A DNA stretch of 64,000 bases from Candidatus Gastranaerophilales bacterium (GCA_944327275.1 CALVHB010000040.1:62001-126000), one strand, 5' to 3'; positions 348 through 14,010 are shown, counted from the stretch's first letter. Translations and numbers: made by a program. The notes: generated from the sequence alone by a model not told the origin.

Positions 348-443
348 TGTTATTCCAAATTTACTGGTTTGGAAATTTTAGCCAAATAGCTATATTTTAT
401 TTATTTTTGTTGTATTATATATTAGATATAGTTTGGAGTGATG

Positions 444-1814
444 ATGTTTAATAAATTATTATCGAAATCAACATTATTAATGTTCTTATTTGATTTGGCA
501 GTGTTTGTATTGTCAACTGTATATTGGTATAACCATATGGTTTTATTACCTGACTTTTTAGATTTGACAGTTCTTTTAACCGCTTTGGCAGGTGTAGTTG
601 TTTTATTTTTAAAAGATAATTATAAAGTAAGAGAGTTTAATAGTACTTTAAAAAATTCGTATTTACTTTTTGAAGGAGTTGTATTTTCTCAAATTCCAGC
701 AACAGCTTTACTTTTAACTTTTGATCAAGGAGTTGAAGCTTTTGAATTTATATTAATGAATTTATTGACTATTTACGTAGTTTTATTTGTTTATCGAAGA
801 ATTTTTCATTATTATTTGTTTAACATTAAAAAAATTAAAAATGTCCTAATTATAGGAGCCAATTCAAATGGGAAGCTTATTGCAGATGAGATAGTTGCTA
901 AAAAAGCTTTGAGGATGAATGTCCTTGGTTTTGTTGATGAAGGTGAAGAAGAAATTATAGAGGATAAAAGTTTTCCAGTTTTCGCTAAAGTGTATGAGTT
1001 GGATGAGATTATAAGAGATAAAAAAGTTGATATTGTCATAATTGCTGTAAAACGAAGAATGGAAGAAGCTTATTTAACTAATATGGTAAATAGTATTCCA
1101 AATAATGTAAAAGTTTATAAAATGCCAGAATTTTACGAGATGGTAACTGGTAAATATTTTGTGGATAGAATGTCTATTAACTGGTTATTTTACGATTACA
1201 TGAACAGTCGTTCTTGTTTATATGACTTTTGCAAACGTGTGTTTGATATTATTGCGGCCCTAATTATTTTGGTAGTTACTTCTCCGATTCTTTTATATAT
1301 CGGCCTAAGGGTAAAAAATATTGATGGTGGAAAGGCAATATTTACACAAAATAGAGTAGGTAAGGATGGAAAGGTTTTTAAAGCATATAAATTAAGGACA
1401 ATGTATTCAAATGATTATGTTCCTTCTGAAGGGAATATAGGGCATACAGAACCGCAAGATGAAGATGAGAGGGTAATTCCTTTCTGTAAATTCGTGAGAA
1501 AAGCGCGCTTTGATGAGATCCCTCAAATGATAAATATATTAAGAGGGGAAATGTCCATAGTTGGTCCTCGTTCAGAGTGGGAAGATTTAGTGAAAATATA
1601 TTCAAAAGAAATTCCTTATTATTCTTGTCGTATGTGGGCAAAGACAGGTTGGACTGGTTGGGCTCAAATAAATCAAGGTCATTGTGTATCATCAGATGAT
1701 GTCTCTGAAAAATTGCAGTATGACTTGTATTATTTGAAACATAGAAATGTATTGTGGGAAATTGGAATTTTAGTAAAAGCTGTATTTTTAGCACTAGGTG
1801 GCAGACATGGATAA
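444..1814 (+). CDS. Polyprenyl glycosylphosphotransferase (priming sugar-phosphate transferase, WbaP/EpsE type)
   Basis: This membrane enzyme is predicted to move a sugar-1-phosphate from a nucleotide sugar to undecaprenyl phosphate, the first step of repeat-unit assembly. The N-terminal third has about four membrane segments. The middle (from about residue 130) is a Rossmann-like CoA-binding fold (VLIIGANSNGK). The C-terminal catalytic domain has the family hallmarks: a membrane helix after CKRVFD, then RVGKDGKVFKAYKLRTM, RKARFDEIPQ and SIVGPRSEW. About 456 residues is normal for the family. I chose ATG 444 because TTGGAG lies 5 bases upstream; ATG 441 and GTG 438 are alternatives. It starts the operon, and its stop overlaps the next gene by 8 bases. 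Confidence 0.92.
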   Translation: MFNKLLSKSTLLMFLFDLAVFVLSTVYWYNHMVLLPDFLDLTVLLTALAGVVVLFLKDNYKVREFNSTLKNSYLLFEGVVFSQIPATALLLTFDQGVEAFEFILMNLLTIYVVLFVYRRIFHYYLFNIKKIKNVLIIGANSNGKLIADEIVAKKALRMNVLGFVDEGEEEIIEDKSFPVFAKVYELDEIIRDKKVDIVIIAVKRRMEEAYLTNMVNSIPNNVKVYKMPEFYEMVTGKYFVDRMSINWLFYDYMNSRSCLYDFCKRVFDIIAALIILVVTSPILLYIGLRVKNIDGGKAIFTQNRVGKDGKVFKAYKLRTMYSNDYVPSEGNIGHTEPQDEDERVIPFCKFVRKARFDEIPQMINILRGEMSIVGPRSEWEDLVKIYSKEIPYYSCRMWAKTGWTGWAQINQGHCVSSDDVSEKLQYDLYYLKHRNVLWEIGILVKAVFLALGGRHG

Positions 1815-3003
1815 AAAGAAAATTTTATATTTATCAACTAGATTACCTTTCCCAGTGATAGGTGGTGATAAATTGCGGATGTTCAATATTTTGAAGCAAT
1901 TAAAGAAGCAAGGATATGAAATTACTTTAGTTTCACTTGTCACCGCAGATGATGATTTGGATGCTTGTTATTCAAATAAAGAATTTTTTGATAAGTTAGT
2001 CCCTGTTAAGTTTAATAAAAAATTGGCATATTTAAATGCTGTAAGAGCTGTTCTTAATGATAGACCCTTTATTGTTGAATATTTTTACAGTAGAGATATG
2101 CAAAAGGTTGTGGATAGATTAATTGCAGAAAATGATTATGATGTAATTACTGGCTATATGATTAGAATTGCTCCTTATTTGGAAAAATATAAAGATAAAA
2201 ATATAATTATTGATTTTGTTGATGCTGTTTCAATGATGTATGAGCGTCGAATTAAAAATGTAGGATCTATTTTTGATAAATTAAAAATAGGAGTAGAATA
2301 TTTAAAAGTTAAAAATTATGAGAGAAAATGTGCAAGAATATTTAAGATGCAGACTGTAATATCGCAAGCTGATAAAGATTACATTGAACAATTTGCGAAA
2401 GATTCAAATATTAAAATTATCGGTAATGGAGTTGATACAGAATATTATAAACCGATTGATTGCCCTAAAAAAAATAAAATATGTTTTGTTGGTTCAATGC
2501 AATATATACCAAATTCGGAAGCTGCAATTTATTTTGCTACAAGAGTTTTTCCTTTAATAAAAAAAGAAATACCTGATGCTGAGTTTGTAATAATTGGGGC
2601 GAATCCAAGAAAAGATTTATTTGACGCTGTAAAAGATATTGATGGTATTGAAATTACTGGCAAGGTTGATGATGTTAGGGAATATATGAAAGATTGTAAA
2701 GTCTCTGTTTGCCCTGTAAAAATAGCCGGTGGAATTCAAAATAAAATATTAGAGGCAATGTCAATTGGGATTCCTGTAGTTACCACTCCGGAAGGCGCTG
2801 AAGGAATAGGGGCAAGTGAAGATATATTATCAGTAGCCAATTCTGATGAAGAATATGCACAGGGAGTAATTAAATTAATTAAAAATGACAATATATGTAA
2901 AGAAATAAATATAAAATCTAGAAAATTTATTACAGAAAAATTTTCTTGGTATAAATTTGCTGTTGATTGGGATAAAGTAATAAAAGAGGTATGTTTTGAG
3001 TGA
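1807..3003 (+). CDS. Glycosyltransferase family 4 (GT-B)
   Basis: This cytoplasmic glycosyltransferase is predicted to add a sugar to the growing lipid-linked repeat unit. The N-terminal part begins STRLPFPVIGGDKLR, a glycine-rich acceptor loop. The C-terminal donor domain opens with ICFVGSMQYIPNSEA and carries KILEAMSIGIPVVTT, the E-x7-E-like nucleotide-sugar region. This arrangement resembles the TIGR03087-type transferases of exopolysaccharide loci. I place the start at ATG 1807, just inside the end of the preceding gene, with AGGTGG as ribosome site; the upstream GTG at 1798 is less likely. The donor sugar cannot be read from sequence. Confidence 0.9.
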   Translation: MDKKKILYLSTRLPFPVIGGDKLRMFNILKQLKKQGYEITLVSLVTADDDLDACYSNKEFFDKLVPVKFNKKLAYLNAVRAVLNDRPFIVEYFYSRDMQKVVDRLIAENDYDVITGYMIRIAPYLEKYKDKNIIIDFVDAVSMMYERRIKNVGSIFDKLKIGVEYLKVKNYERKCARIFKMQTVISQADKDYIEQFAKDSNIKIIGNGVDTEYYKPIDCPKKNKICFVGSMQYIPNSEAAIYFATRVFPLIKKEIPDAEFVIIGANPRKDLFDAVKDIDGIEITGKVDDVREYMKDCKVSVCPVKIAGGIQNKILEAMSIGIPVVTTPEGAEGIGASEDILSVANSDEEYAQGVIKLIKNDNICKEINIKSRKFITEKFSWYKFAVDWDKVIKEVCFE

Positions 3004-4447
3004 TAACGCAATAAAAAAAACAATTAACATTTTTACTTTCATCACATTAATTTTTTTATTTTTACCTTCTTTATACATTGTTGGAAGAGCTGTTCCTTTG
3101 TATGATGTTATCATTTTTTTTGAAATGTTTTTAATTTTTGTTTTTTATAAAAATAATATAAATAAAATTGCATATTTTTATAAATTTAATTTTTTTAAGA
3201 TATTGATTTTATATGTTTTATGGGTGATATTTTCTTCTTTATTGCTTTTAATTTATAATAAATATACGATTTTCAATATGTTTTATGGATGTTTTTTGTT
3301 ATTTTTATACAATAACTTTGTTTGGTATTTTTTCCCAATTTTAATTTGTCCTAGAATAATATCTTTAAAAAAAATAATTAAATTTATAATTATTGGTATA
3401 TATCTCACTTGTATTTATGGATTATTAATCTATTTGGTTAATGGAGTTTTTCATTTATCTTTTCTAGACCCCATTAATAATATAATATTAAATAGACGGA
3501 CCTTGGCATTGGGAAATAATCTTGTCTTTTCAAGGGTTTATAGTGTATTTGAAGAACCTGGACATTTCGGAGGCTTTTTGTGTGTAAATTTACCAATAAT
3601 ATATAAAGTTGTATTATCTAAATATAAAATTGTAAATAATAAATTCTTGAACAAAGTATTGAAAAAAACATATATTCCAATTTTAGTTTTGACGATTATT
3701 TTAGTTCAATCTCCAATATGGTTTATTCTTTTTGTTATTTCAACTGTTTTTTATTTTAAAAATAAGTTAAAAATTCAGAACTTAAAAAATTTAATAGTTA
3801 TTTTTATATTCGCAATATTTGTTACATTAAGTTGTGTTGTTATACAAAGTGTTGATGTGTCTAAGACTTTTTTAAATAGAATTTCTAACACGTACGAAGC
3901 TGTAAATAGTTTAAACAAATTAGTTTACACTGAACCTTCTTTAGCAACAAGAATAATATCGTATTTGATAAGAGTTAAAATTTTTACAATTAATCCAATT
4001 GCAGGTGTTGGCTACAAAAATGGAGAATACCATGCAATAAGTGCTATTACAAATTCTAATTTACCATTAACAGTTGAATTAAATCATAATTTTGAGCAAG
4101 CATTATCAACAGGACACTTCCAAATGTCTGGAGCGATTTTCTGGAATGCATTATCAGATACTGGTATTATTGGAACTATACTGTTTTATATGTTTTTAAT
4201 ATTTAATTTAATAATGTTAAACAAGCTAGGTAGATTTATGCCAGATTCAATAGAGAAAGATTTTGGTATTGGGCTTAAATATACAATATTATCAATTATG
4301 TTATATTCAATATACGATATACGTAGTAATTTTGTATATTTTTGGTTCATATTTGGTTTGACATTGTGTTTTATTATGCACGTGAAATATTTGAGTGCTG
4401 TGCAACAGCATAGAAGGGTAGTGATTAATAAAGATGAAAATGAATGA
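2996..4447 (+). CDS. O-antigen polymerase/ligase-like membrane protein (Wzy candidate)
   Basis: This protein of about 483 residues has ten or more hydrophobic segments and the EEPGHFGGF motif in a large loop, both typical of the O-antigen ligase/Wzy family. It is extremely rich in Phe, Ile, Leu and Lys. The neighbouring flippase and chain-length gene make the Wzy role (joining repeat units on the periplasmic face) the best reading; a ligase role cannot be excluded because these families share a fold. The start is TTG at 2996, 8 bases before the end of the preceding gene, with AGAGGT 5 bases upstream. It overlaps the next gene by 14 bases. Confidence 0.82.
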   Translation: MSDNAIKKTINIFTFITLIFLFLPSLYIVGRAVPLYDVIIFFEMFLIFVFYKNNINKIAYFYKFNFFKILILYVLWVIFSSLLLLIYNKYTIFNMFYGCFLLFLYNNFVWYFFPILICPRIISLKKIIKFIIIGIYLTCIYGLLIYLVNGVFHLSFLDPINNIILNRRTLALGNNLVFSRVYSVFEEPGHFGGFLCVNLPIIYKVVLSKYKIVNNKFLNKVLKKTYIPILVLTIILVQSPIWFILFVISTVFYFKNKLKIQNLKNLIVIFIFAIFVTLSCVVIQSVDVSKTFLNRISNTYEAVNSLNKLVYTEPSLATRIISYLIRVKIFTINPIAGVGYKNGEYHAISAITNSNLPLTVELNHNFEQALSTGHFQMSGAIFWNALSDTGIIGTILFYMFLIFNLIMLNKLGRFMPDSIEKDFGIGLKYTILSIMLYSIYDIRSNFVYFWFIFGLTLCFIMHVKYLSAVQQHRRVVINKDENE

Positions 4448-5624
4448 TTATAGGGTTATTAGGTATTTGAAATACTGCATTTATTATATATTTCGTGTAA
4501 TAGTTATTTTTGAATATAATATTTATATTTTGTTTAAAAATTTAAAAAAGAGAGAAAGTAAAAAAATTAATAGACTTTTTGCAACAACAGGAAATATATC
4601 TTTAATAAACACTATAACATTAATAAATGAAATTGGTGATAAACATTTATACGATGATATTTTATTTATAGATACTGGAAAAGGTCGTGAAGAATTTGTA
4701 AACACACAATTGGAAATTGCCAAACTCCATAAATTTAAAAAAATTATTGTTGGCTACCAATTAAGTTCTGGAGTTGAAGCTGTTTTGCATAATATTTTTA
4801 AAGTTGATGAAGTGTTTTTATTAAATCATCCTGCACATACTAGTACAATTATACCATTGTACAAACAAGCTAAATTTATACTTATTGACGAAGGTCCAGC
4901 TTCTTTAATTGCGTATGATAAACAATTTTTAAAACAAATAAAAGTTTTTAAAACGCACAGATATTTAAACAAGTTAGATTTTTGTGGATTAGATAATATT
5001 GATCTTGTTAATTTTGGATCTTTGGATCTAAATGAATTTAGAAAAATTGCAAATACTATTTCTGAGAAATATCCTTTGACACCAAAATATAAAGCTAAAG
5101 ATAAAGCAATATTATATTGTGGAATTTATTGGGAAGTATCTGGTCTAGACAGAAAATCTTTTATAAAATTACAAAATGAAACAATTAATAATCTTTTAAA
5201 GGCTGGATATAAGATATTATATAAACCTCACCCTAGAGATACAGAATTTTATGGCTTGGATAAGAATCCTAATGTGGAATTTATAAACACACGATTGCCA
5301 ATAGAATTATATAAACTTGATATTTTAGCTGTTGTTTCTATTTCGTCAACTGCGTCATTGTCATATGCACATTATTGGCAAGTTCCTTCATTCTCTAATG
5401 TTACGCCTGAGGCTATACAAGTAAAATCTAATAAAGTTTTATTAAATTTAGTTAGATTTATTGTAAATGAGTATTCTCCAAATTATAGTGAATTATTAGA
5501 TTTAGACGTAAAAAATCGTTCAAGTGATATGTTAGCACAAGATATAATGAACATTTATAATACTTTTATGGCTAGTAAGCCTTTACTATCTAAAAATATA
5601 AGTGTAAATAAATATTTAAATTAA
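4434..5624 (+). CDS. Glycosyltransferase with bacterial (poly)sialyltransferase motifs
   Basis: This 396-residue protein has the three short motifs that mark bacterial GT-B sialyl- and polysialyltransferases (GT38/GT52/GT80 and the Pfam alpha-2,8-polysialyltransferase family). They are D/E-D/E-G as DEGPASL at residues 152-158, HP as KPHPRD around H266-P267, and a serine pair as SISST at 302-306. In known enzymes the first supplies the catalytic acid and the HP motif contacts CMP. The locus also encodes a CMP-sugar synthetase, which supports use of a CMP-activated donor. Overall similarity cannot be measured here, and the acceptor and exact donor are unknown. The start at 4434 overlaps the preceding gene. 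Confidence 0.7.
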   Translation: MKMNDYRVIRYLKYCIYYIFRVIVIFEYNIYILFKNLKKRESKKINRLFATTGNISLINTITLINEIGDKHLYDDILFIDTGKGREEFVNTQLEIAKLHKFKKIIVGYQLSSGVEAVLHNIFKVDEVFLLNHPAHTSTIIPLYKQAKFILIDEGPASLIAYDKQFLKQIKVFKTHRYLNKLDFCGLDNIDLVNFGSLDLNEFRKIANTISEKYPLTPKYKAKDKAILYCGIYWEVSGLDRKSFIKLQNETINNLLKAGYKILYKPHPRDTEFYGLDKNPNVEFINTRLPIELYKLDILAVVSISSTASLSYAHYWQVPSFSNVTPEAIQVKSNKVLLNLVRFIVNEYSPNYSELLDLDVKNRSSDMLAQDIMNIYNTFMASKPLLSKNISVNKYLN

Positions 5625-5643
5625 ATATAAGGTGAGTAATAAA

Positions 5644-6636
5644 ATGCAGAAAGTTTTAACGAATATAAGTAAATATAGAAGTGCATTGATGGGTATTGCA
5701 ATGATATGGATAATATTTGCACACTCATATGTGTCTATAAATCTACCACTGTTCATAAAATTCCCATTTATGGGACTTGGTTTTGGTGGAGTAGAGATTT
5801 TTTTATTTCTGTCGGGTTTTGGTATATATTATTCTTTGAACAAGAATATTGATTTAGGAAAGTTTTTCCTAAAACGGATATATCGTTTTTTACCGGCAGT
5901 TCCTATATTTATAGTATATTTTATACTTATGAAAATTACAGTATTTCATACTATAGTTGGGTATTTTACTTTAGAAAATTTTTGGTTAGATAAGAGGCAT
6001 TTTGGTTTTCTTTCTTACGCATTTTTGTGTTATACATTATCTCCTATTTTTTTCGATATAACAAATAAGCATTTGCAATCGGTCAAAAATCAATTATTAT
6101 TTTTACTATTTATTTTTATTTTAACAATACCATTTTGGGGAGATGGTAGAATTCAGGGAGTAGCTAGATTGCCTATATTTTTAATAGGTTTTTATTGTGG
6201 TTATTATTATGTTAATAAAAAGGATAATATAAAATATTTCCTATATAAAGCTCAATTTGTGTCGATTTTTGCATTTTTAGCTTTAGTAATTATTTATTTG
6301 TTTTTGTATGAGTATCGTATTAAGTATGGTTTAATATATTATGGTATGTGTTTCTTTGTTCCCGGATTTATTTTTACTTTGACTTTTGTCCTTGATAAAT
6401 TAAAATTTGTGACATCTATTTTAAGTTTTGTAGGGAAAAATAGTTTGGAAATATTTTTGATAGATTCATTAGTTACTACTTTTTGGAGATATGATTTACT
6501 GTTTTATCAACATTTGATGTTGTCAATCTTAGGAGGTATATTATATTCATTGATAATTAATAAAATAACTGAAATAGTGACAATTTTATCAGATAAGAGA
6601 ATAACTAATTATGAAAGCAAATACAACGAACGATAA
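5644..6636 (+). CDS. Acyltransferase family 3 membrane protein
   Basis: This integral membrane O-acyltransferase probably adds acetyl or a similar group to the surface polysaccharide. The N-terminus contains the conserved histidine region (MIWIIFAHS) followed by GVEIFLFLSGFGIYYSL, the usual start of this family, and about ten membrane segments follow. At about 330 residues it is a compact member without an extra periplasmic domain. I chose ATG 5644, 7 bases after AAGGTGAG; the GTG at 5632 lies inside that ribosome site and is less likely. Its end overlaps the flippase gene by 26 bases. Confidence 0.85.
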   Translation: MQKVLTNISKYRSALMGIAMIWIIFAHSYVSINLPLFIKFPFMGLGFGGVEIFLFLSGFGIYYSLNKNIDLGKFFLKRIYRFLPAVPIFIVYFILMKITVFHTIVGYFTLENFWLDKRHFGFLSYAFLCYTLSPIFFDITNKHLQSVKNQLLFLLFIFILTIPFWGDGRIQGVARLPIFLIGFYCGYYYVNKKDNIKYFLYKAQFVSIFAFLALVIIYLFLYEYRIKYGLIYYGMCFFVPGFIFTLTFVLDKLKFVTSILSFVGKNSLEIFLIDSLVTTFWRYDLLFYQHLMLSILGGILYSLIINKITEIVTILSDKRITNYESKYNER

Positions 6637-7879
6637 AATTAAATTGATAGAAAATTTTATAGCGATGGTAGTTACACAGATTGTGACATATGTTATGCCA
6701 TTTATTTCTCTTCCCTATTTATCAAGAGTTTTAGGAGTAGAGAAATTTGGACTTGTTTTTTGGGCTCAATCCTGTATGGTATATTTTATTATCTTAACTG
6801 ATTATGGATTTAATTTATCTGCCGTAAGAGAAATTGCGATAAACAGAAATGATAAGTATGCAGTATCAAATATTTTTAATTCTGTAATGGTAGTTAAATT
6901 TATACTAATTCTGATTAGCTTTTGTATACTGACATTGCTCATATTAATTGTTCCACAATTTAAACAAGAGTGGTTACTATTTTATTTAACTTTTTTTATG
7001 GTGATAGGTAATGCACTGTATCCAATTTGGTATTTTCAAGGGATAGAGCATATGAAATATGTAACTTTTCTGAAAATAGTTTCTCAATCAATTTTTATTA
7101 TATTAATTTTTATATTTATAAAATCTCCATCAGATTATTATTATGTTGCAATTTTAAATTCTTTAGGTTTTATAATCTCGGGGGTGTTAAGTATATTTAT
7201 TGCTATCAAAAGGTTTGATTTGAAAATATTTATTCCAGATTCAAAAAGTATAATAGATCAATTTCGATACAGTAGTGAATTTTTCTTTGCAAAGGCTTCT
7301 GAAACTTTATATACAAATACTAATTCTTTTATATTAGGATTGATAGCTACTCCGGTTTTTGTTGGGTATTATGTTTCTGCAGAGAAAATTTTTCAAGCAG
7401 TACACATGTTAACTGCTCCAATAGGAATAACACTTTACCCTTATATTGCAAAAAGTAGAAATGTGCAATTGTACAAAAAAGTGTTCACTCCTACTTTGAT
7501 TTTTATCCTACTAGTTAGTGTAATTATATATTTTATTGCACCACACCTAATTACAATTTTTTATGGACAAGAAATGCTTCCTGCTTATAAAATACTGCGC
7601 ATATTTTCTGTTACAGTTATATTTTCTGCAACATCTGGGTTAATAGGTTATCCTTTAGTTGCCGCTATGGGGCATACCAAGATTGTAAATTACTCATTAA
7701 CAATAGCTGCGTTTATACATATTATAATGTTATCTATATTGTACTTAATAAAATTCTTAAATATTAAAACTATTGCTTGGTTAACTATTTTACCTTATGC
7801 TATAATGCTTTCAATTAGAGTTTATGGAGTAATTAAGTATAATTTGTGGAGTTTAAAAAAAGGAGGAACAAGTGTTTGA
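6611..7879 (+). CDS. Wzx-like polysaccharide flippase (MOP superfamily)
   Basis: This 422-residue protein has about 12 membrane segments. It opens with a segment ending VMPFISLPYLSRVLGVEKFG, the typical start of RfbX/Wzx-type O-antigen translocases, which flip lipid-linked repeat units across the inner membrane. Its position between a Wzy candidate and a Wzz candidate supports this role. The start at ATG 6611 lies inside the end of the acyltransferase gene, suggesting translational coupling, and its own end overlaps the next gene by 8 bases. Confidence 0.88.
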   Translation: MKANTTNDKIKLIENFIAMVVTQIVTYVMPFISLPYLSRVLGVEKFGLVFWAQSCMVYFIILTDYGFNLSAVREIAINRNDKYAVSNIFNSVMVVKFILILISFCILTLLILIVPQFKQEWLLFYLTFFMVIGNALYPIWYFQGIEHMKYVTFLKIVSQSIFIILIFIFIKSPSDYYYVAILNSLGFIISGVLSIFIAIKRFDLKIFIPDSKSIIDQFRYSSEFFFAKASETLYTNTNSFILGLIATPVFVGYYVSAEKIFQAVHMLTAPIGITLYPYIAKSRNVQLYKKVFTPTLIFILLVSVIIYFIAPHLITIFYGQEMLPAYKILRIFSVTVIFSATSGLIGYPLVAAMGHTKIVNYSLTIAAFIHIIMLSILYLIKFLNIKTIAWLTILPYAIMLSIRVYGVIKYNLWSLKKGGTSV

Positions 7880-9395
7880 GAAAAGTTCCCAATTAGGTGA
7901 TAAAAATATAAAAATTATTTGTACCCATAATCCTTATTTTAATAATGAGAATGTCATAATATTTGGATTTCCATTTAATGTTAAGAATAGAGCTATATCA
8001 AAAGATGAGTTAGATAATGTAAAGGGTTACTTTTTACAGTTTATTATTAAAGATAGTACTATTGAAATAATAAGTGATATTGCAAGTTTATATAGATTTT
8101 ATTATATGGAAATAGGTAATACAATCTATTTTTCAAACGATTTTATGACATTATTTAATATTTTACCCAAAAATAAAAGGACGTTAAATTCCTTTGAGTT
8201 GGAATATTGGTATAGAAATCGATATACAACGGGTGGAGATACGATCTGCAAAGAAATAAAAAAGGTTAAACCTGCTCATATTTACACATTTACAGATAAT
8301 AATATCTATGAGCAATTGTATTATAAAGATTTTAAGAATGTCCCAAATAGAAAACAACATATTGCAGACGTTTTAGAAGATCTAAGAGATACTGTTAGTA
8401 TAATAAAGGAAATGCCTCAAAAGAAAATTTTGTTATTCTCTGGAGGGGCAGATTCGACTTTGTTAGTAAAAATGTTGCAGGAACAAAACGTTGATTTTAT
8501 TCCAGTTTTCGGGAAATTGATTCCAACTAATTCAATGAATTACGATGATATATTAAAAATAAAGTATTCTTCAAAAATACTAGGTATTGAACCTTTAGAA
8601 ATAGAAGTAGATATTAATGAAAATATTTCTAGTGATATTATTGATATAATGTTCTTAGATAGAAACATAACACAAATATTTTTTAAGATGGCAGAGAAAA
8701 TAAAAGAGCAGTTTGGAGATGATGTAATATTATTAAATGGTCAAGCTTCAGATTCAATATTTAATTTTGGACCAACCAGTAAAAATATTGGGAATTTTTT
8801 TATAAGGCATATATTGTTTAAGCCTTTTAATGTTATGAGCTTTTTATTTTTAGAAGTAATAAAATTGGCTCGTAAAAAATATAATGTGTGTAGGAATGTA
8901 AGAACAGAAGATGAATATACTACTACTTTTTTTGATGTTGTATCTTATATGCCAATATTTGACAAAAGTGTGAGTCTAGGATATTACAATAAAATAAAAG
9001 AATTGATAATTAGTATAAAAAATATTATAAAAAATAAATATGCACTTTTAATGTACCTCAAAATATATGGTTTTATGCAAGGATCAGACGATTATGTAAA
9101 TGTACAATGTTGTGAATATAATAATTTAAAATCTTTATTTTTGTTTGCAACGCCTAAAATAATATACTCAACTGTTCAAAATACTGACTATAATTATGAG
9201 ATTCTGCATCCAAAATCAGTTGTATATGGAATTTTGAGTAAAACATACAATTATACAATGCCAAATATAAAAAAAGAAAAAAATTATGTAAAAATTTCAA
9301 AGTCAAACGAAAAATACGTAGATTATGAAGAAAAAATTTATAAATATTTTTATGAAAAGATGAGTTCATTAGAATTTTCAAAAAAGATATTATAA
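7872..9395 (+). CDS. Asparagine-synthase-like ATP-dependent ligase without the N-terminal cysteine
   Basis: This 507-residue protein has the layout of class B asparagine synthetases. A degenerate Ntn-type N-terminal half (SDIASLYRFYYMEIGNT resembles the family's substrate-binding strand region) is followed by a PP-loop ATPase domain with SGGADS at residues 190-195. The usual Cys2 nucleophile is absent: the second residue is Phe, so glutamine hydrolysis is unlikely. Related proteins in surface-polysaccharide loci are thought to form amides on sugar acids or substituents. The start is GTG 7872 with a perfect AGGAGG 5 bases upstream. It is the last gene of the first transcription block. Confidence 0.75.
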   Translation: MFEKSSQLGDKNIKIICTHNPYFNNENVIIFGFPFNVKNRAISKDELDNVKGYFLQFIIKDSTIEIISDIASLYRFYYMEIGNTIYFSNDFMTLFNILPKNKRTLNSFELEYWYRNRYTTGGDTICKEIKKVKPAHIYTFTDNNIYEQLYYKDFKNVPNRKQHIADVLEDLRDTVSIIKEMPQKKILLFSGGADSTLLVKMLQEQNVDFIPVFGKLIPTNSMNYDDILKIKYSSKILGIEPLEIEVDINENISSDIIDIMFLDRNITQIFFKMAEKIKEQFGDDVILLNGQASDSIFNFGPTSKNIGNFFIRHILFKPFNVMSFLFLEVIKLARKKYNVCRNVRTEDEYTTTFFDVVSYMPIFDKSVSLGYYNKIKELIISIKNIIKNKYALLMYLKIYGFMQGSDDYVNVQCCEYNNLKSLFLFATPKIIYSTVQNTDYNYEILHPKSVVYGILSKTYNYTMPNIKKEKNYVKISKSNEKYVDYEEKIYKYFYEKMSSLEFSKKIL

Positions 9396-9633
9396 TGGGA
9401 TTATAGGTGATAATTTTTGAAAATATTTTAAATTTATTATTCCCTATCTTATAGGATAGTAGTTTTGGTTATCAGTTTTTACTTGATTAAAATGTCAGTT
9501 TAGATAGATAAGGATTTATTAAATATTATTACAATCTATTATATTCCATTTTTACTTTTATTTACTTATACTATAATGTTTTTACATATAATAATATTAT
9601 TATGACCATAGTTTTGTAATGTGAAGGGGTCTG
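9396..9633 (+). promoter_or_regulatory. AT-rich intergenic gap with candidate promoter for the HAD-CMP-aldolase-Wzz block
   Basis: These 238 bases contain no credible ORF. Near the start, CTATC and GATAG form a 5-base stem followed by a short T run, possibly a weak terminator for the upstream block. A TATAAT box lies at 9572-9577 with only a poor T-rich -35 candidate near 9549. The downstream gene has GAAGGGG just before its start. A separate promoter for the second block is likely, but the exact start site is a guess. Confidence 0.4.
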
Positions 9634-10338
9634 ATGAAAACAATATTTTTAGATTTTGATGGAGTTTTATTTGATAGTGTAAAAGAAGCATATTTACTTG
9701 CCAGATATGCTTTTTATGATATTCCAATAAAGGATAATATAGATTATGAGCATTATCAAAAATTTAGAAAATATCGTTATCTCGTAACTCATTCTTGGCA
9801 ATATTATTATATTTTTAAACTTTTAGAAAATAATGTTGTCGATTTTGAAAAGGAATATTATAAATTAGTAAATAGCCGAAATAAAGAAATGGATAATTTA
9901 TTTGACGAAAAATATCAAAAGCAAAGGAGATTTTTAATAGAATATGATTATAATTATTGGAAGAAATTAGAACAACCTTATAGCTTTTTTTATGAAATTA
10001 AAAAAATAAAAGATACTTTAGATATAGTAATCCTTTCTACAAAAAATGAGTTCGCAATAAAAAATCATTTAGAAGATTATGAATTTAATATAACTGAAGA
10101 AAAGATAATAGGGAAAGAAAAATTAAAGAAATATCAAACGAAGTCTAATTTTATTGATACTTATATAAAAGCAAATAATATAAAACGAGCTATTTTTATA
10201 GATGATAGTCTAGATAATTTGATTGAATGCAAATATATAAATAATTTAAAGTGTCTACGTGCAAGGTGGGGGTATGTTGAACCCCAAAAACAGTTGGATA
10301 ATAGTTCATATATTTTAAATCAAATAAAGGAGTTTTGA
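9634..10338 (+). CDS. HAD-superfamily phosphatase
   Basis: This small hydrolase has HAD motif I as DFDGVLFDS (nucleophile Asp7, general acid Asp9), motif II near VILSTKN and motif IV as IDDS (Asp190-Asp191). HAD enzymes mostly remove phosphate from small metabolites. It sits 4 bases before a CMP-sugar synthetase and is co-transcribed with an aldolase. A role in dephosphorylating the sugar acid before CMP activation, like KdsC in the Kdo pathway, is therefore a good hypothesis. The large helical cap between residues 20 and 125 is not one I recognise. Substrate assignment is inference. Confidence 0.8.
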   Translation: MKTIFLDFDGVLFDSVKEAYLLARYAFYDIPIKDNIDYEHYQKFRKYRYLVTHSWQYYYIFKLLENNVVDFEKEYYKLVNSRNKEMDNLFDEKYQKQRRFLIEYDYNYWKKLEQPYSFFYEIKKIKDTLDIVILSTKNEFAIKNHLEDYEFNITEEKIIGKEKLKKYQTKSNFIDTYIKANNIKRAIFIDDSLDNLIECKYINNLKCLRARWGYVEPQKQLDNSSYILNQIKEF

Positions 10339-10342
10339 TATT

Positions 10343-11014
10343 ATGATAAATGGAAAAACTATAAAAGCGATAATACCTGTGAGAGCTGGCTCAGAAAGAG
10401 TAAAAAATAAAAATATCCGTCCTTTTGCCGGTAGTAGTTTATTAGAAATAAAGATTAAACAATTAAAGCAGGTAGATGGGTTAGATGGAATTGTAGTAAA
10501 TTCTGATTCTGATGAAATGCTAGAAGTTGCAGAAAGTTTAGGTGTTGAAGTTTTTAAAAGAGACCCTTATTATGCTTCTTCTTCTGTTCCAATAAATGAG
10601 GTATATAAAAATATTGCAGAAAATATGAATAGTAATATTATTGTTTATACTAATGTGACAAATCCATTGTTAAAAATCGAATCAATTAATAAAGCTATAA
10701 CAACCTTCATAAACAAACCAAATACCAATGATACTTTAAATACAGCTCACTTAATAAAAGAATTTATGTGGGAAAATGGAAAACCTATAAACTATGATTT
10801 GAATAAAATGCCTAAAAGCCAGAATTTACCTGATATTTATGCTCTAAATTTTGCACTTAACATTTTTTATAGAGATTATGCAATTGAGAATTCTAGTATT
10901 GTAGGTAAGAGCCCTTTATTATTCCCTTTGGATATGGTTGAATCAATCGATATAGATAACGAAATTGATTTTGAATTTGCAGAGTTTATGTATAAAAAAT
11001 ATAGGATGAATTAA
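10343..11014 (+). CDS. CMP-sugar synthetase (acylneuraminate cytidylyltransferase family)
   Basis: This 223-residue protein is predicted to activate a 2-keto sugar acid with CTP, giving CMP-sugar plus diphosphate. The N-terminal nucleotide-binding signature IPVRAGSERVKNKN (residues 11-24) is the NeuA/PseF/KdsB-like pattern, followed by NSDSDEM and KRDPYYAS, which match the conserved strand and substrate region. Its length equals that of single-domain NeuA-type enzymes. GGAG lies about 10 bases before the ATG. Whether the substrate is a sialic acid, legionaminic or pseudaminic acid, or something else cannot be told from sequence, and none of the usual NeuB or NeuC genes are present. Confidence 0.85.
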   Translation: MINGKTIKAIIPVRAGSERVKNKNIRPFAGSSLLEIKIKQLKQVDGLDGIVVNSDSDEMLEVAESLGVEVFKRDPYYASSSVPINEVYKNIAENMNSNIIVYTNVTNPLLKIESINKAITTFINKPNTNDTLNTAHLIKEFMWENGKPINYDLNKMPKSQNLPDIYALNFALNIFYRDYAIENSSIVGKSPLLFPLDMVESIDIDNEIDFEFAEFMYKKYRMN

Positions 11015-11016
11015 TT

Positions 11017-12603
11017 ATGTCGAATATAAAAGTTTTAGATTGTACACTTAGAGATGGCGGTTATATAAATAACTGGGAATTTGGACAAGAAAAATCAAAG
11101 TCTATAGTTAATTTATTGTACAGTTCAAATATTGATTACATAGAATTAGGTTTTTTAACAAAAGAAAAATCCTATGATAATATGACCCTTTTTAATAATT
11201 TTATAGATTTTAAAAATATTATTCCTGAAAATATAGATAAAAATAAATTATTTGGAATGATAACTTATGGTAAGTTCCCAATTAATGGTGTGCCAGAGGA
11301 AAAAGAGTCTCCGATTAATGGAATAAGATTAATATTTAAGAAATCTCAAACAAGAGATGCGCTAGAATATTGTAAATGTCTAAAGCAAAAAGGATATAAG
11401 TTATTTATAAATCCTACTTTTATAGATCAATTCAGTGATCTTGAGTTGATTGATATTATACATGAAATTAATAAGATCGCTCCATATGGAATGTCAATAG
11501 TTGATTCAATGGGAGTATTAAAAGAAAGAGATTTATTGAGGTTATACTATTTAATAAATCATAATCTCAACAAAGATATTGCTTTATGTTTTCATTCTCA
11601 TAATAATTTACAGCTATCTTTTTCCAACGCTCAGTGTTTAATGAAAGTATGTAAAGATAGAGAATTAATAATTGACTCAACAGTATTTGGGATGGGTAGA
11701 GGTGCAGGAAATCTTTGTACAGAGTTATTGACGCAATACATAAATGATAATTATAACGGAAATTATGATCTAATTCCGATTTTGAAAATTGTTGATGAAC
11801 AAATAAATCCGATATTTGCTAAAACTCCTTGGGGATATTCCGTTCCATATTACCTTGCAGCAACAAATCATTGTCATCCAAATTATGCTAAATACTTGGT
11901 TGATAAACAAACTGTTCCTGTTGAGATCATTAACCATCTATTGCAGACAATTCCTGATGAAAAAAAATCATCTTATGATTCTAATTTAATTAAGCAAATA
12001 TATTTGGATAATTTTTCTAATTCAATAGATGATACAGAGACTTTGACTTATCTAAAAAATACATTAGTAGGTAGAAAAATTTTGATTTTAGCTCCAGGAA
12101 AGTCTCTAACAAAAGAAAAAGATAAGGTAAATGATTACATAAGTAAATATAATCCTTTTGTAATTTCACTGAATTTTATTCCTAAAGAATATAGAACCGA
12201 CTTAGCTTTTATTACAAATATGAAACGTTTCGAGTCTTTAGAAGATTATTCAATGCCGCTTGTAATTTCTTCAAATATAGAAAATATTCCTAAACAAGCA
12301 AAATTGATAAATTATTCATCGTATTTGAATAATTCCAAGATGTTTGATAATGTAGCATTAATGATTTTTAAATTATTAATTAAAATTGGTATAAAATCTG
12401 TTACAATAGCTGGTTTAGATGGGTTTTCTACTATTCCTACAGAAAATTATGTCGCAAATGAAATGATAAATAACGCTAAAGTTAGTGAATTTGATGAAAG
12501 AAACAATATTATGTCGGAAGAACTATCAAGTCTTGAAAGTTATATAGAAATAGACTTTTTAACTTCAACATTGTATAAAATAAAAACTCCTATCAAATTG
12601 TAA
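11017..12603 (+). CDS. DRE-TIM metal-dependent aldolase fused to a GT42/DUF115-like domain
   Basis: Residues 1-320 are a DRE-TIM metalloenzyme of the HMG-CoA lyase/4-hydroxy-2-oxovalerate aldolase type. It has LDCTLRDGG at 7-15 (catalytic Arg12, metal ligand Asp13), HSHNN at 193-197 (metal-binding histidines) and GMGRGAGN at 225-232. Family members make or break carbon-carbon bonds next to a keto acid such as pyruvate. From residue 349 a second domain begins, with ILILAPGKSL (355-364) and AGLDGF (465-470). This order of motifs recalls CstII-like GT42 sialyltransferases and DUF115 proteins, but the GT42 catalytic histidine is not evident. It starts 2 bases after the CMP-sugar synthetase. The aldolase call is firm; its chemistry and the second domain's role are inferences. 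Confidence 0.8.
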   Translation: MSNIKVLDCTLRDGGYINNWEFGQEKSKSIVNLLYSSNIDYIELGFLTKEKSYDNMTLFNNFIDFKNIIPENIDKNKLFGMITYGKFPINGVPEEKESPINGIRLIFKKSQTRDALEYCKCLKQKGYKLFINPTFIDQFSDLELIDIIHEINKIAPYGMSIVDSMGVLKERDLLRLYYLINHNLNKDIALCFHSHNNLQLSFSNAQCLMKVCKDRELIIDSTVFGMGRGAGNLCTELLTQYINDNYNGNYDLIPILKIVDEQINPIFAKTPWGYSVPYYLAATNHCHPNYAKYLVDKQTVPVEIINHLLQTIPDEKKSSYDSNLIKQIYLDNFSNSIDDTETLTYLKNTLVGRKILILAPGKSLTKEKDKVNDYISKYNPFVISLNFIPKEYRTDLAFITNMKRFESLEDYSMPLVISSNIENIPKQAKLINYSSYLNNSKMFDNVALMIFKLLIKIGIKSVTIAGLDGFSTIPTENYVANEMINNAKVSEFDERNNIMSEELSSLESYIEIDFLTSTLYKIKTPIKL

Positions 12604-12651
12604 GATTATGGTGTTTTTGTTATAAATTATATTACTATAAGGGAGATAATA

Positions 12652-14010
12652 ATGGTAGACTATGATTATAACCAAGAATTTGATGAAGAATTAACAATAG
12701 ATTTAAAAAAGATACTTCTATCCTTATGGAGTAGAAAGTTTCTTATAGTAATCAATTTTTTAATAATGATTTCTTTATTTACAGCTTTAGCTTTTGTTAT
12801 GCCTAAAAAGTACTTAGTGGAAAGTGATTTGTATGTAAATAAAGCAAATAATTCAAATATGATGGAAATTAACCCTTATGCTATAGAAGAATTAGGGGGT
12901 GCTGGTGGAGGAGTTGCGGCTTTAATGGCAGGTGGCGGAGGTGCGTTAACCAACGAACTTGAATTGATGCAGTCTCCTTTGGTAATTGATAAAGTTATTA
13001 GAGAAAATAATCTTGTTTATAAGAAAAAGTTTGGAATCATTCCTAATAAAAAAGAAGGTGAATACATTTCAACAAAAGCTTTCTTAAAGAAGAATATATC
13101 CTTTGAGAATAAAAAAGGTACTAATGTAATAAGTATTGAGTATAAAAATAAAGATCCTGAATTAGCATATAATGTAGTAAATTCAATAATTAGCAATTAT
13201 ATTGAGTTGCACAAACGATTAAATAGTGAAAAGTCAAAATCAGATAAAAAGGTTATTGAGGCAGAGTATAATAAGGCTAAAAAAGCTTTAAATACAAAGC
13301 TAAATGCATCAACAGGTATTCCAGAACAAGCCTTGGCAACATCAGGTGGAATTTCCGCAATGAGTGCATTTTCAAAGTCTGCGCAAAAAGCAATGGCTAA
13401 TTTAACCGGTCAAGTTAGAGCAGGAGAACGTGCTAAAATAGAGATTACAGAAGAAGCATCTAAAGTTGCAGCTCTTTCATCTAAACTGGAATGGGCTAAA
13501 ATGGTTGATGAAATGTCTGATTCATCAAAAGTTTTAGTATTGAAAGAGCCTCAAAAATTGAGAGATTTTGAATATTCTTCTCCAAGTTTATTAATAAATA
13601 TTTTATTGGGTATTGTATTTGGTGCTATTGCATCTCTATTTGCAGTTATTCTGGCTGAAAATACTGATAAAAAGCTAACATATTCAATGTTAGGGGATAA
13701 TATTATTTATGATTTGGAAGAAGATTATTCAGATTTGAAGATTGTGTTGTTAGCAAATTCAGATAAACAAGTAAGCATTGTAACTTTTGAAAATGTACCT
13801 CAAAAAGTTTTATCAGACTTAAGTACAATTCAAAATATAAATATTGTTAAAGCAGATATTTCAAAAGAATTTGTAAGTCGTATTTCTTCTTCTGATAAAT
13901 TGATTTTGTTTGTCTCAATAAATAAAACAAATTCAAAATTTTATAAACAAATTAAGTCAATGCTGACGGAAATGAAGAAAACAATAATTACAGAAGCATT
14001 AATTAAGTAA
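12652..14010 (+). CDS. Wzz-type polysaccharide chain-length determinant/co-polymerase
   Basis: This 452-residue inner-membrane protein has the Wzz topology: a first membrane helix at about residues 29-52, a long periplasmic coiled-coil region, and a second helix at about 312-335. The glycine-rich stretch near residues 82-99, followed by ELELMQSPLVIDKVI, matches the family's conserved region. About 115 cytoplasmic residues follow the second helix. They have the alternating strand/helix look of a BY-kinase domain but no Walker A motif, so any nucleotide-binding role is doubtful. AGGGAGA lies 6 bases before the ATG. It is the last gene of the island and ends at a strong terminator. Confidence 0.87.
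   Translation: MVDYDYNQEFDEELTIDLKKILLSLWSRKFLIVINFLIMISLFTALAFVMPKKYLVESDLYVNKANNSNMMEINPYAIEELGGAGGGVAALMAGGGGALTNELELMQSPLVIDKVIRENNLVYKKKFGIIPNKKEGEYISTKAFLKKNISFENKKGTNVISIEYKNKDPELAYNVVNSIISNYIELHKRLNSEKSKSDKKVIEAEYNKAKKALNTKLNASTGIPEQALATSGGISAMSAFSKSAQKAMANLTGQVRAGERAKIEITEEASKVAALSSKLEWAKMVDEMSDSSKVLVLKEPQKLRDFEYSSPSLLINILLGIVFGAIASLFAVILAENTDKKLTYSMLGDNIIYDLEEDYSDLKIVLLANSDKQVSIVTFENVPQKVLSDLSTIQNINIVKADISKEFVSRISSSDKLILFVSINKTNSKFYKQIKSMLTEMKKTIITEALIK

Follow-up and report, generated by a model that had tools for sequence, protein, structure and literature searches.

The window analysed here, a 64,000-nucleotide stretch of DNA (positions 62001-126000 of contig C40), belongs to a 1.62 Mb assembly, 93% complete, whose closest relatives are Candidatus Gastranaerophilales, gut-dwelling kin of the cyanobacteria. 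It contains, on the plus strand, three consecutive genes encoding a HAD-type phosphatase (9634-10338), a NeuA/PseF-type cytidine monophosphate (CMP)-sugar synthetase (10343-11014) and a two-domain DRE-TIM aldolase of 528 residues (11017-12603). The reading that we favour, and consider rather probable, is that these genes form a sugar-specific cassette that supplies a surface polysaccharide of the Wzx/Wzz type with a CMP-activated 2-keto sugar acid, made by aldol addition in place of phosphoenolpyruvate (PEP) condensation. The well-known bacterial routes to CMP-ulosonic acids employ the PEP-dependent synthases NeuB and KdsA. In other words, the gene content suggests that a sialic-acid-like sugar is probably made here without the usual PEP-dependent enzyme.

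The three open reading frames (ORFs) are intact, lie on one strand and are separated by gaps of 4 and 2 bases, in agreement with an earlier, sequence-only reading of this DNA. The phosphatase carries the complete set of HAD motifs (DFDG at residue 7, LSTK at 134, K..K at 165-170 and IDDS at 189), has a Pfam score under the gathering cut-off (PF00702, 19.6 bits) and adjoins the CMP synthetase and the aldolase in relatives too. The CMP synthetase passes PF02348 (4.8e-23; 82.5 bits versus a cut-off of 22.6) and, among solved structures, is nearest to NeuA. Specifically, its residues D203 and D205 align with Asp209 and Asp211 of Neisseria meningitidis NeuA, which are Mg ligands, and K158 aligns with the carboxylate-binding Arg165 of the same enzyme (PMC2901514); the Mg-binding Asp pair is thus retained. 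The protein falls under the cut-offs of the PseF pseudaminic acid cytidylyltransferase equivalog (TIGR03584, 77 bits versus 205.7), of KdsB and of all other equivalogs, and therefore the acid that it activates cannot be named.

The linkage of these genes extends well beyond the window. The analysis covered 107 non-redundant family aldolases whose neighbours are visible (47 long, 60 short); a NeuA- or KdsB-type gene is located on the same strand and within 2.5 kb in 37 of the 47 long forms and in 1 of the 60 short ones (Fisher test 2e-18, a value uncorrected for kinship). The linked long forms span Gastranaerophilales, cyanobacteria, Bacillota, Spirochaetota and a Leisingera plasmid. The sequence-only reading had proposed to look for the same three-gene set in other genomes, and there it was found: the trio is tight in Gastranaerophilales, recurs in the cyanobacterial loci L066, L067, L069 and L070 and is present, in the order aldolase, synthetase, HAD, on the Leisingera plasmid; Bacillota (L169, L170) and Spirochaetota (L172, L174) have partial sets. 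The counts of HAD genes are lower bounds, as the local ORF caller missed some of them, including the Leisingera gene (L029:9356-10003), which was recovered through annotation and Pfam; the genome survey covered groups other than Pseudomonadota and Bacteroidota. Moreover, L010 and L012 hold two aldolases each, and every copy is preceded by its own CMP synthetase. Aldolase, phosphatase and CMP synthetase are a conserved unit and not a local accident.

Some variants of this arrangement deserve mention. Some clusters encode additional PF02348 synthetases that differ from one another in subtype within the cluster, up to five of them in L012 (L002:6582-7304, L012:5630-11131 and L010:49-2292). The short aldolases were considered as members of the same system and rejected, given that single neighbouring synthetase. 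One of them (L089:4888-5901, 337 residues), which has neither the C-terminal domain of the long forms nor a nearby CMP synthetase, nests in the long-form clade of the window with a support of 100, an apparent joint loss of domain and neighbour. In addition, the aldolase barrel is fused to a GT2 glycosyltransferase domain in L093:2802-5966 (1054 residues) and to a portion with no Pfam match in L092:4801-6894 (697 residues).

The aldolase is itself a mosaic. A comparison of 18 close relatives resolves the barrel segment formed by residues 21-190 (11077-11586 in the window) into three classes, with class A in the window, L002, L003 and L014, class B in L004, L007, L008, L012, L013 and L015, and class C in the rest. 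Identity between class A and the other classes is 36-51% over residues 40-190; residues 195-315 (11599-11961), a constant part of the barrel near the HxH metal motif and the recombination breakpoints, are 79-98% identical in every pair. The clusters of L006 and L007 are nearly the same (100% for the glycosyltransferase, 97% for WbsX and 96% for the acyltransferase at the protein level; 83% for wzx). The block from the HAD gene to about codon 190 of the aldolase shows a DNA identity of 53-70%, with values as high as 81% where the aldolase begins; in the rest of the aldolase gene, identity recovers to 88-99%. A breakpoint falls inside the aldolase. Four-fold degenerate sites differ at 13 of 18 positions inside the block versus 3 of 55 in residues 321-520, a contrast at silent sites that argues for replacement and not for relaxed constraint, and the same pattern is seen in the pair L010/L012 (11 of 14 versus 8 of 49).

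Across all loci, similarity over residues 21-190 tracks that of the CMP synthetase (r 0.44, p 0.004) and of the HAD protein (r 0.36, p 0.002), and not that of the remainder of the aldolase (r 0.08), of the C-terminal domain (0.15) or of Wzx (0.05). The 3′ half of the aldolase, on its side, tracks the C-terminal domain (r 0.82) and Wzz (0.62), and the HAD protein follows this half too (r 0.50), which makes its covariation signal less clean. A tie between synthetase type (NeuA or KdsB) and aldolase class was considered and dropped, as L007 and L008 are both of class B (91% identical over residues 40-190) and differ in type.

The class of the barrel segment also matches the transferase encoded in the same cluster. 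In the window this is a polysialyltransferase-like protein (4434-5624, plus strand), which passes the gathering cut-off of PF07388 (4.5e-12; 46.6 bits versus 23.3); the transferase with sialyltransferase motifs of the sequence-only reading is a candidate user of the CMP-sugar. All four class A loci carry such a gene and none encodes an MptE-like protein; all 11 class B and C loci with a visible transferase region encode an MptE-like protein (PF01973 family, standalone or fused to GT2) and no polysialyltransferase. Since wzx, which is located between the two, shows no covariation with the aldolase segment, the match exceeds what adjacency accounts for, and it suggests, on few independent events, that the barrel segment and the transferase relate to one and the same sugar. 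GT2 proteins at L078:2372-4873 and L017:5054-7216 are fusions as well, one with a polysialyltransferase-like domain and one with an MptE-like domain.

These data bear on the possibility that the aldolase serves catabolism, has nothing to do with the CMP sugar and neighbours its genes by chance alone. Gene contexts of the degradation type do occur around some short relatives, as on a Priestia plasmid, but in different phyla the long form, with its C-terminal domain, goes together with CMP synthetases, and the aldolase is exchanged with the CMP synthetase as a single block, which makes this explanation highly improbable.

A profile search found no NeuB in the window's genome, as represented by its 93% complete assembly; the sole match to the NeuB model is, by its sequence, a 3-deoxy-D-arabino-heptulosonate 7-phosphate (DAHP) synthase of the AroF type, and two weak PF02348 matches correspond to GlmU and IspD. 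The genome does encode KdsA (contig C5), KdsB (C51) and KdtA (C52), none of them linked to C40, most simply for the 3-deoxy-D-manno-octulosonic acid (Kdo) of the lipopolysaccharide inner core, and one gene of the UDP-N-acetylglucosamine 2-epimerase type (NeuC/WecB family) on C43. The look for neuB or kdsA elsewhere in this genome, as proposed by the sequence-only reading, turned up none of the former and one of the latter, which is unlinked to the cluster. Two cyanobacterial genomes that hold the unit and are 99% complete, G103 and G155, have neither NeuB nor KdsA, with matches at the level of DAHP synthases only. The proposal of the sequence-only reading that the aldolase replaces the PEP-dependent synthase is thus strengthened by these two genomes and by the conservation of the unit, and qualified by the KdsA, KdsB and KdtA of the genome in which it was made. 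These enzymes leave room for a different, unlikely explanation: the CMP synthetase would activate Kdo made by the cell's own KdsA, or scavenged sialic acid, and the aldolase and the phosphatase would produce or modify another component of the polysaccharide. Scavenging of sialic acid is possible for gut bacteria, and some cassettes use KdsB-like synthetases. However, the latter are just 30-38% identical to the housekeeping KdsB, the synthetase and the aldolase segment are replaced jointly, and G103 and G155 hold the unit but neither KdsA nor NeuB.

The barrel of the aldolase (residues 1 to about 320) passes PF00682 (4.3e-16; 59.5 bits versus a cut-off of 29), and its nearest solved structure is 3dxi (BVU_2661; 1e-29), which covers residues 3-316 only. 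A fold search with the full-length AlphaFold model (pLDDT, the predicted local distance difference test, of 86.3) matched only barrels, in particular 3dxi (Z 28.7) and 1nvm (Z 27.5). The protein belongs to the DRE-TIM metallolyase superfamily, as it combines a HMGL-like TIM barrel with an Arg-Asp/HxH metal site, of which R12 and the HxH pair (H193, H195) are conserved in 94 of 94 sequences and D13 in 92. After 3dxi, the closest characterised folds are pyruvate aldolases, namely 4-hydroxy-2-oxovalerate aldolases; the score for the corresponding equivalog (TIGR03217) is 56.9 bits versus a cut-off of 286. By analogy with the chemistry of the family, pyruvate is probably the substrate.

The sequence-only reading had described a plain aldolase. 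The barrel was correctly recognised, but about one third of the protein is a domain of the sialyltransferase/MptE fold that escaped notice, as did the mosaic structure. The full-length search returned barrels only, and the C-terminal domain (residues 335-528; 12019-12600) was therefore modelled and searched alone (pLDDT 84.5; predicted template modelling score, pTM, 0.85). Its predicted fold matches MptE HPPK (Z 10.9), the GT42 sialyltransferase Cst-II (1ro8; Z 10.8, root mean square deviation 3.4 over 166 residues, which assigns it to the GT42 fold), SteA (Z 10.3) and GT29 sialyltransferases (Z 7-9), with the next unrelated folds dropping to Z 4.9; with Foldseek alone, E-values are marginal (best 1.1e-3, for SteA). 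As to sequence, the MptE-like family PF01973 scores 18.1 bits in the window, under its gathering cut-off of 34.6, and is matched at an E-value of up to 1 in 8 of 19 relatives (best 1.3e-6). The domain is homologous across cyanobacterial and Leisingera long forms (hhalign 98%, 9e-15). In 44 long forms, Asn386, Arg404, an AG-x-DG motif and Thr516 are conserved, and no His column reaches 85% conservation. Sialyltransferases of the GT42 and GT29 families use a catalytic His. According to the model, therefore, the domain is a CMP-sugar-enzyme fold without an obvious sialyltransferase base.

The same features could be read as those of the pathway's active glycosyltransferase, given that the fold is of the sialyltransferase type and that Asn386 and AG-x-DG are kept in all long forms; polysialyltransferase-like and MptE-like proteins would then use other donors. 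We regard this as improbable, because the His expected of such catalysts is not conserved and nearly every resolved locus has a separate transferase-like gene.

Taken together, and inferring the chemistry from gene content and predicted folds, we propose that the aldolase barrel adds the enolate of a 2-keto acid, probably pyruvate, to a sugar aldehyde or aldehyde phosphate, generating the 2-keto acid skeleton in place of NeuB or KdsA. The HAD enzyme would remove the phosphate, the NeuA-type enzyme would couple the acid to CMP, and transfer would be operated by the polysialyltransferase-like enzyme at 4434-5624 and, in most relatives, by the MptE-like protein. Residues 21-190 may select the aldehyde, the HxH metal motif being located in the barrel's constant part; exchange of these residues between strains, together with the phosphatase and the CMP synthetase, would change the sugar, and the constant part of the aldolase gene would act as a recombination flank. 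Binding of the CMP-sugar or of CMP is the probable role of the C-terminal domain, which would act as a feedback sensor or a transferase. A broader version of this scheme is put forward only tentatively: a modular aldolase would give access to undescribed CMP-2-keto sugar acids, strains would swap the acceptor-side barrel segment, the phosphatase and the CMP synthetase, and the fused domain would sense or transfer the CMP-sugar.

Several observations weigh against the proposed cassette function. Part of the covariation between residues 21-190 and the CMP synthetase could reflect nothing more than adjacency. In the barrel tree, length form switches at least 6 times on supported branches, and the informative independent pairs associate the CMP synthetase with the long form by 4 to 0 (p 0.125), too few for a firm statement. 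Ten long forms have no visible CMP synthetase, including those of L082-L084, in which a HpcH/HpaI aldolase and a thiamine diphosphate (ThDP)-dependent enzyme stand in its place. Moreover, many of the 34 genomes with long aldolases carry KdsA and some carry NeuB. Finally, the position that we take to be that of the catalytic His of 4-hydroxy-2-oxovalerate aldolases is occupied by Tyr16 in the window, which makes pyruvate aldol chemistry uncertain, and HpcH/HpaI-type genes (PF03328) adjoin long aldolases at L070:4438-5214, between the aldolase and the CMP synthetase, and at L082:7068-7817, L083:6505-7272 and L084:7126-7878, so that two unrelated aldolase families share one cluster.

The last two points, together with the varied chemistry of the DRE-TIM superfamily, count in favour of an explanation in which the barrel is not a pyruvate aldolase at all: it would condense or cleave another 2-keto acid or an acyl compound, and the skeleton would come from, for example, a HpcH/HpaI aldolase. 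The ThDP-dependent enzymes that adjoin family aldolases, short ones included, at L174:7204-10343, L177:3662-7844, L021:9023-10630 and L083:7265-9046, with DegT-type aminotransferases in two of these loci, point in the same direction. Nevertheless, the aldolases of L069 and L070 are almost identical and yet the examined region of L069 contains no HpaI gene, none is present in the window or in the examined loci of close relatives, and the closest characterised folds after 3dxi remain pyruvate aldolases; we hold such an alternative to be quite unlikely for the cassette. The ThDP-enzyme neighbourhoods suggest a second, different use of the aldolase barrel.

The cassette lies in a surface-polysaccharide cluster that spans bases 438-14010 of the window. 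Besides the trio and the polysialyltransferase-like protein, the cluster encodes an initiating glycosylphosphotransferase, a glycosyltransferase, an acyltransferase, a Wzx-type flippase (6611-7879, plus strand; PF01943, 3.4e-57), an asparagine-synthase-like protein (7872-9395; TIGR01536, 43.6 bits, below the cut-off) and a Wzz-type chain-length protein (12652-14010, plus strand; PF02706, 3.7e-09), the last kept as the downstream flank of the cassette. The asparagine-synthase-like gene is present in L003 and in no other relative's locus.

If the proposed route is correct, genome surveys based on neuB or kdsA as markers miss a class of acidic sugars on the surface of gut Gastranaerophilales, cyanobacteria and other bacteria. 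It would also suggest a function for the BVU_2661-like aldolase family, for which a structure labelled as a putative aldolase has been available since 2008, and, since the barrel segments have been swapped in nature, aldehyde specificity becomes directly testable. The broader, tentative version of the scheme would represent a system of surface-sugar diversification with its exchange point inside an enzyme, combined with a PEP-independent route to ulosonic acids. Within the open-access literature (subscription journals were outside the scope), we found no description of the gene set, of the "aldolase catalytic domain-containing protein" or of the function of BVU_2661.

Among known enzymes, BVU_2661 of Bacteroides vulgatus (PDB 3dxi, a putative aldolase) is of the same barrel subfamily and, to judge by the title of the entry, the structure represents the N-terminal domain of a longer protein. 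The 4-hydroxy-2-oxovalerate aldolases of the DmpG/BphI type (1nvm) share the barrel, the metal motif and the Arg and Asp of TLRDG, whereas the window's aldolase presumably has Tyr at the position of their catalytic His, is not partnered by an acylating aldehyde dehydrogenase and carries an unrelated C-terminal domain. HpcH/HpaI aldolases, which belong to another barrel family, would have in common with it a presumed class-II pyruvate aldolase chemistry and the proximity of their genes to some members. The C-terminal domain resembles GT42 and GT29 enzymes, MptE and SteA in the fold of residues 335-528, in Asn386 and in AG-x-DG, and differs from them in its lack of a conserved His, in its fusion to an aldolase and in its marginal sequence similarity. 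As a whole, the system parallels the NeuB/KdsA-type pathways for sialic, pseudaminic and legionaminic acid and Kdo, with which it shares the phosphatase, the synthetase of the NeuA/KdsB family, the PF07388 or MptE-like transferase and the location in a surface-polysaccharide cluster; unlike them, it lacks a linked NeuB or KdsA, whose place is taken by a DRE-TIM aldolase that carries an additional domain.

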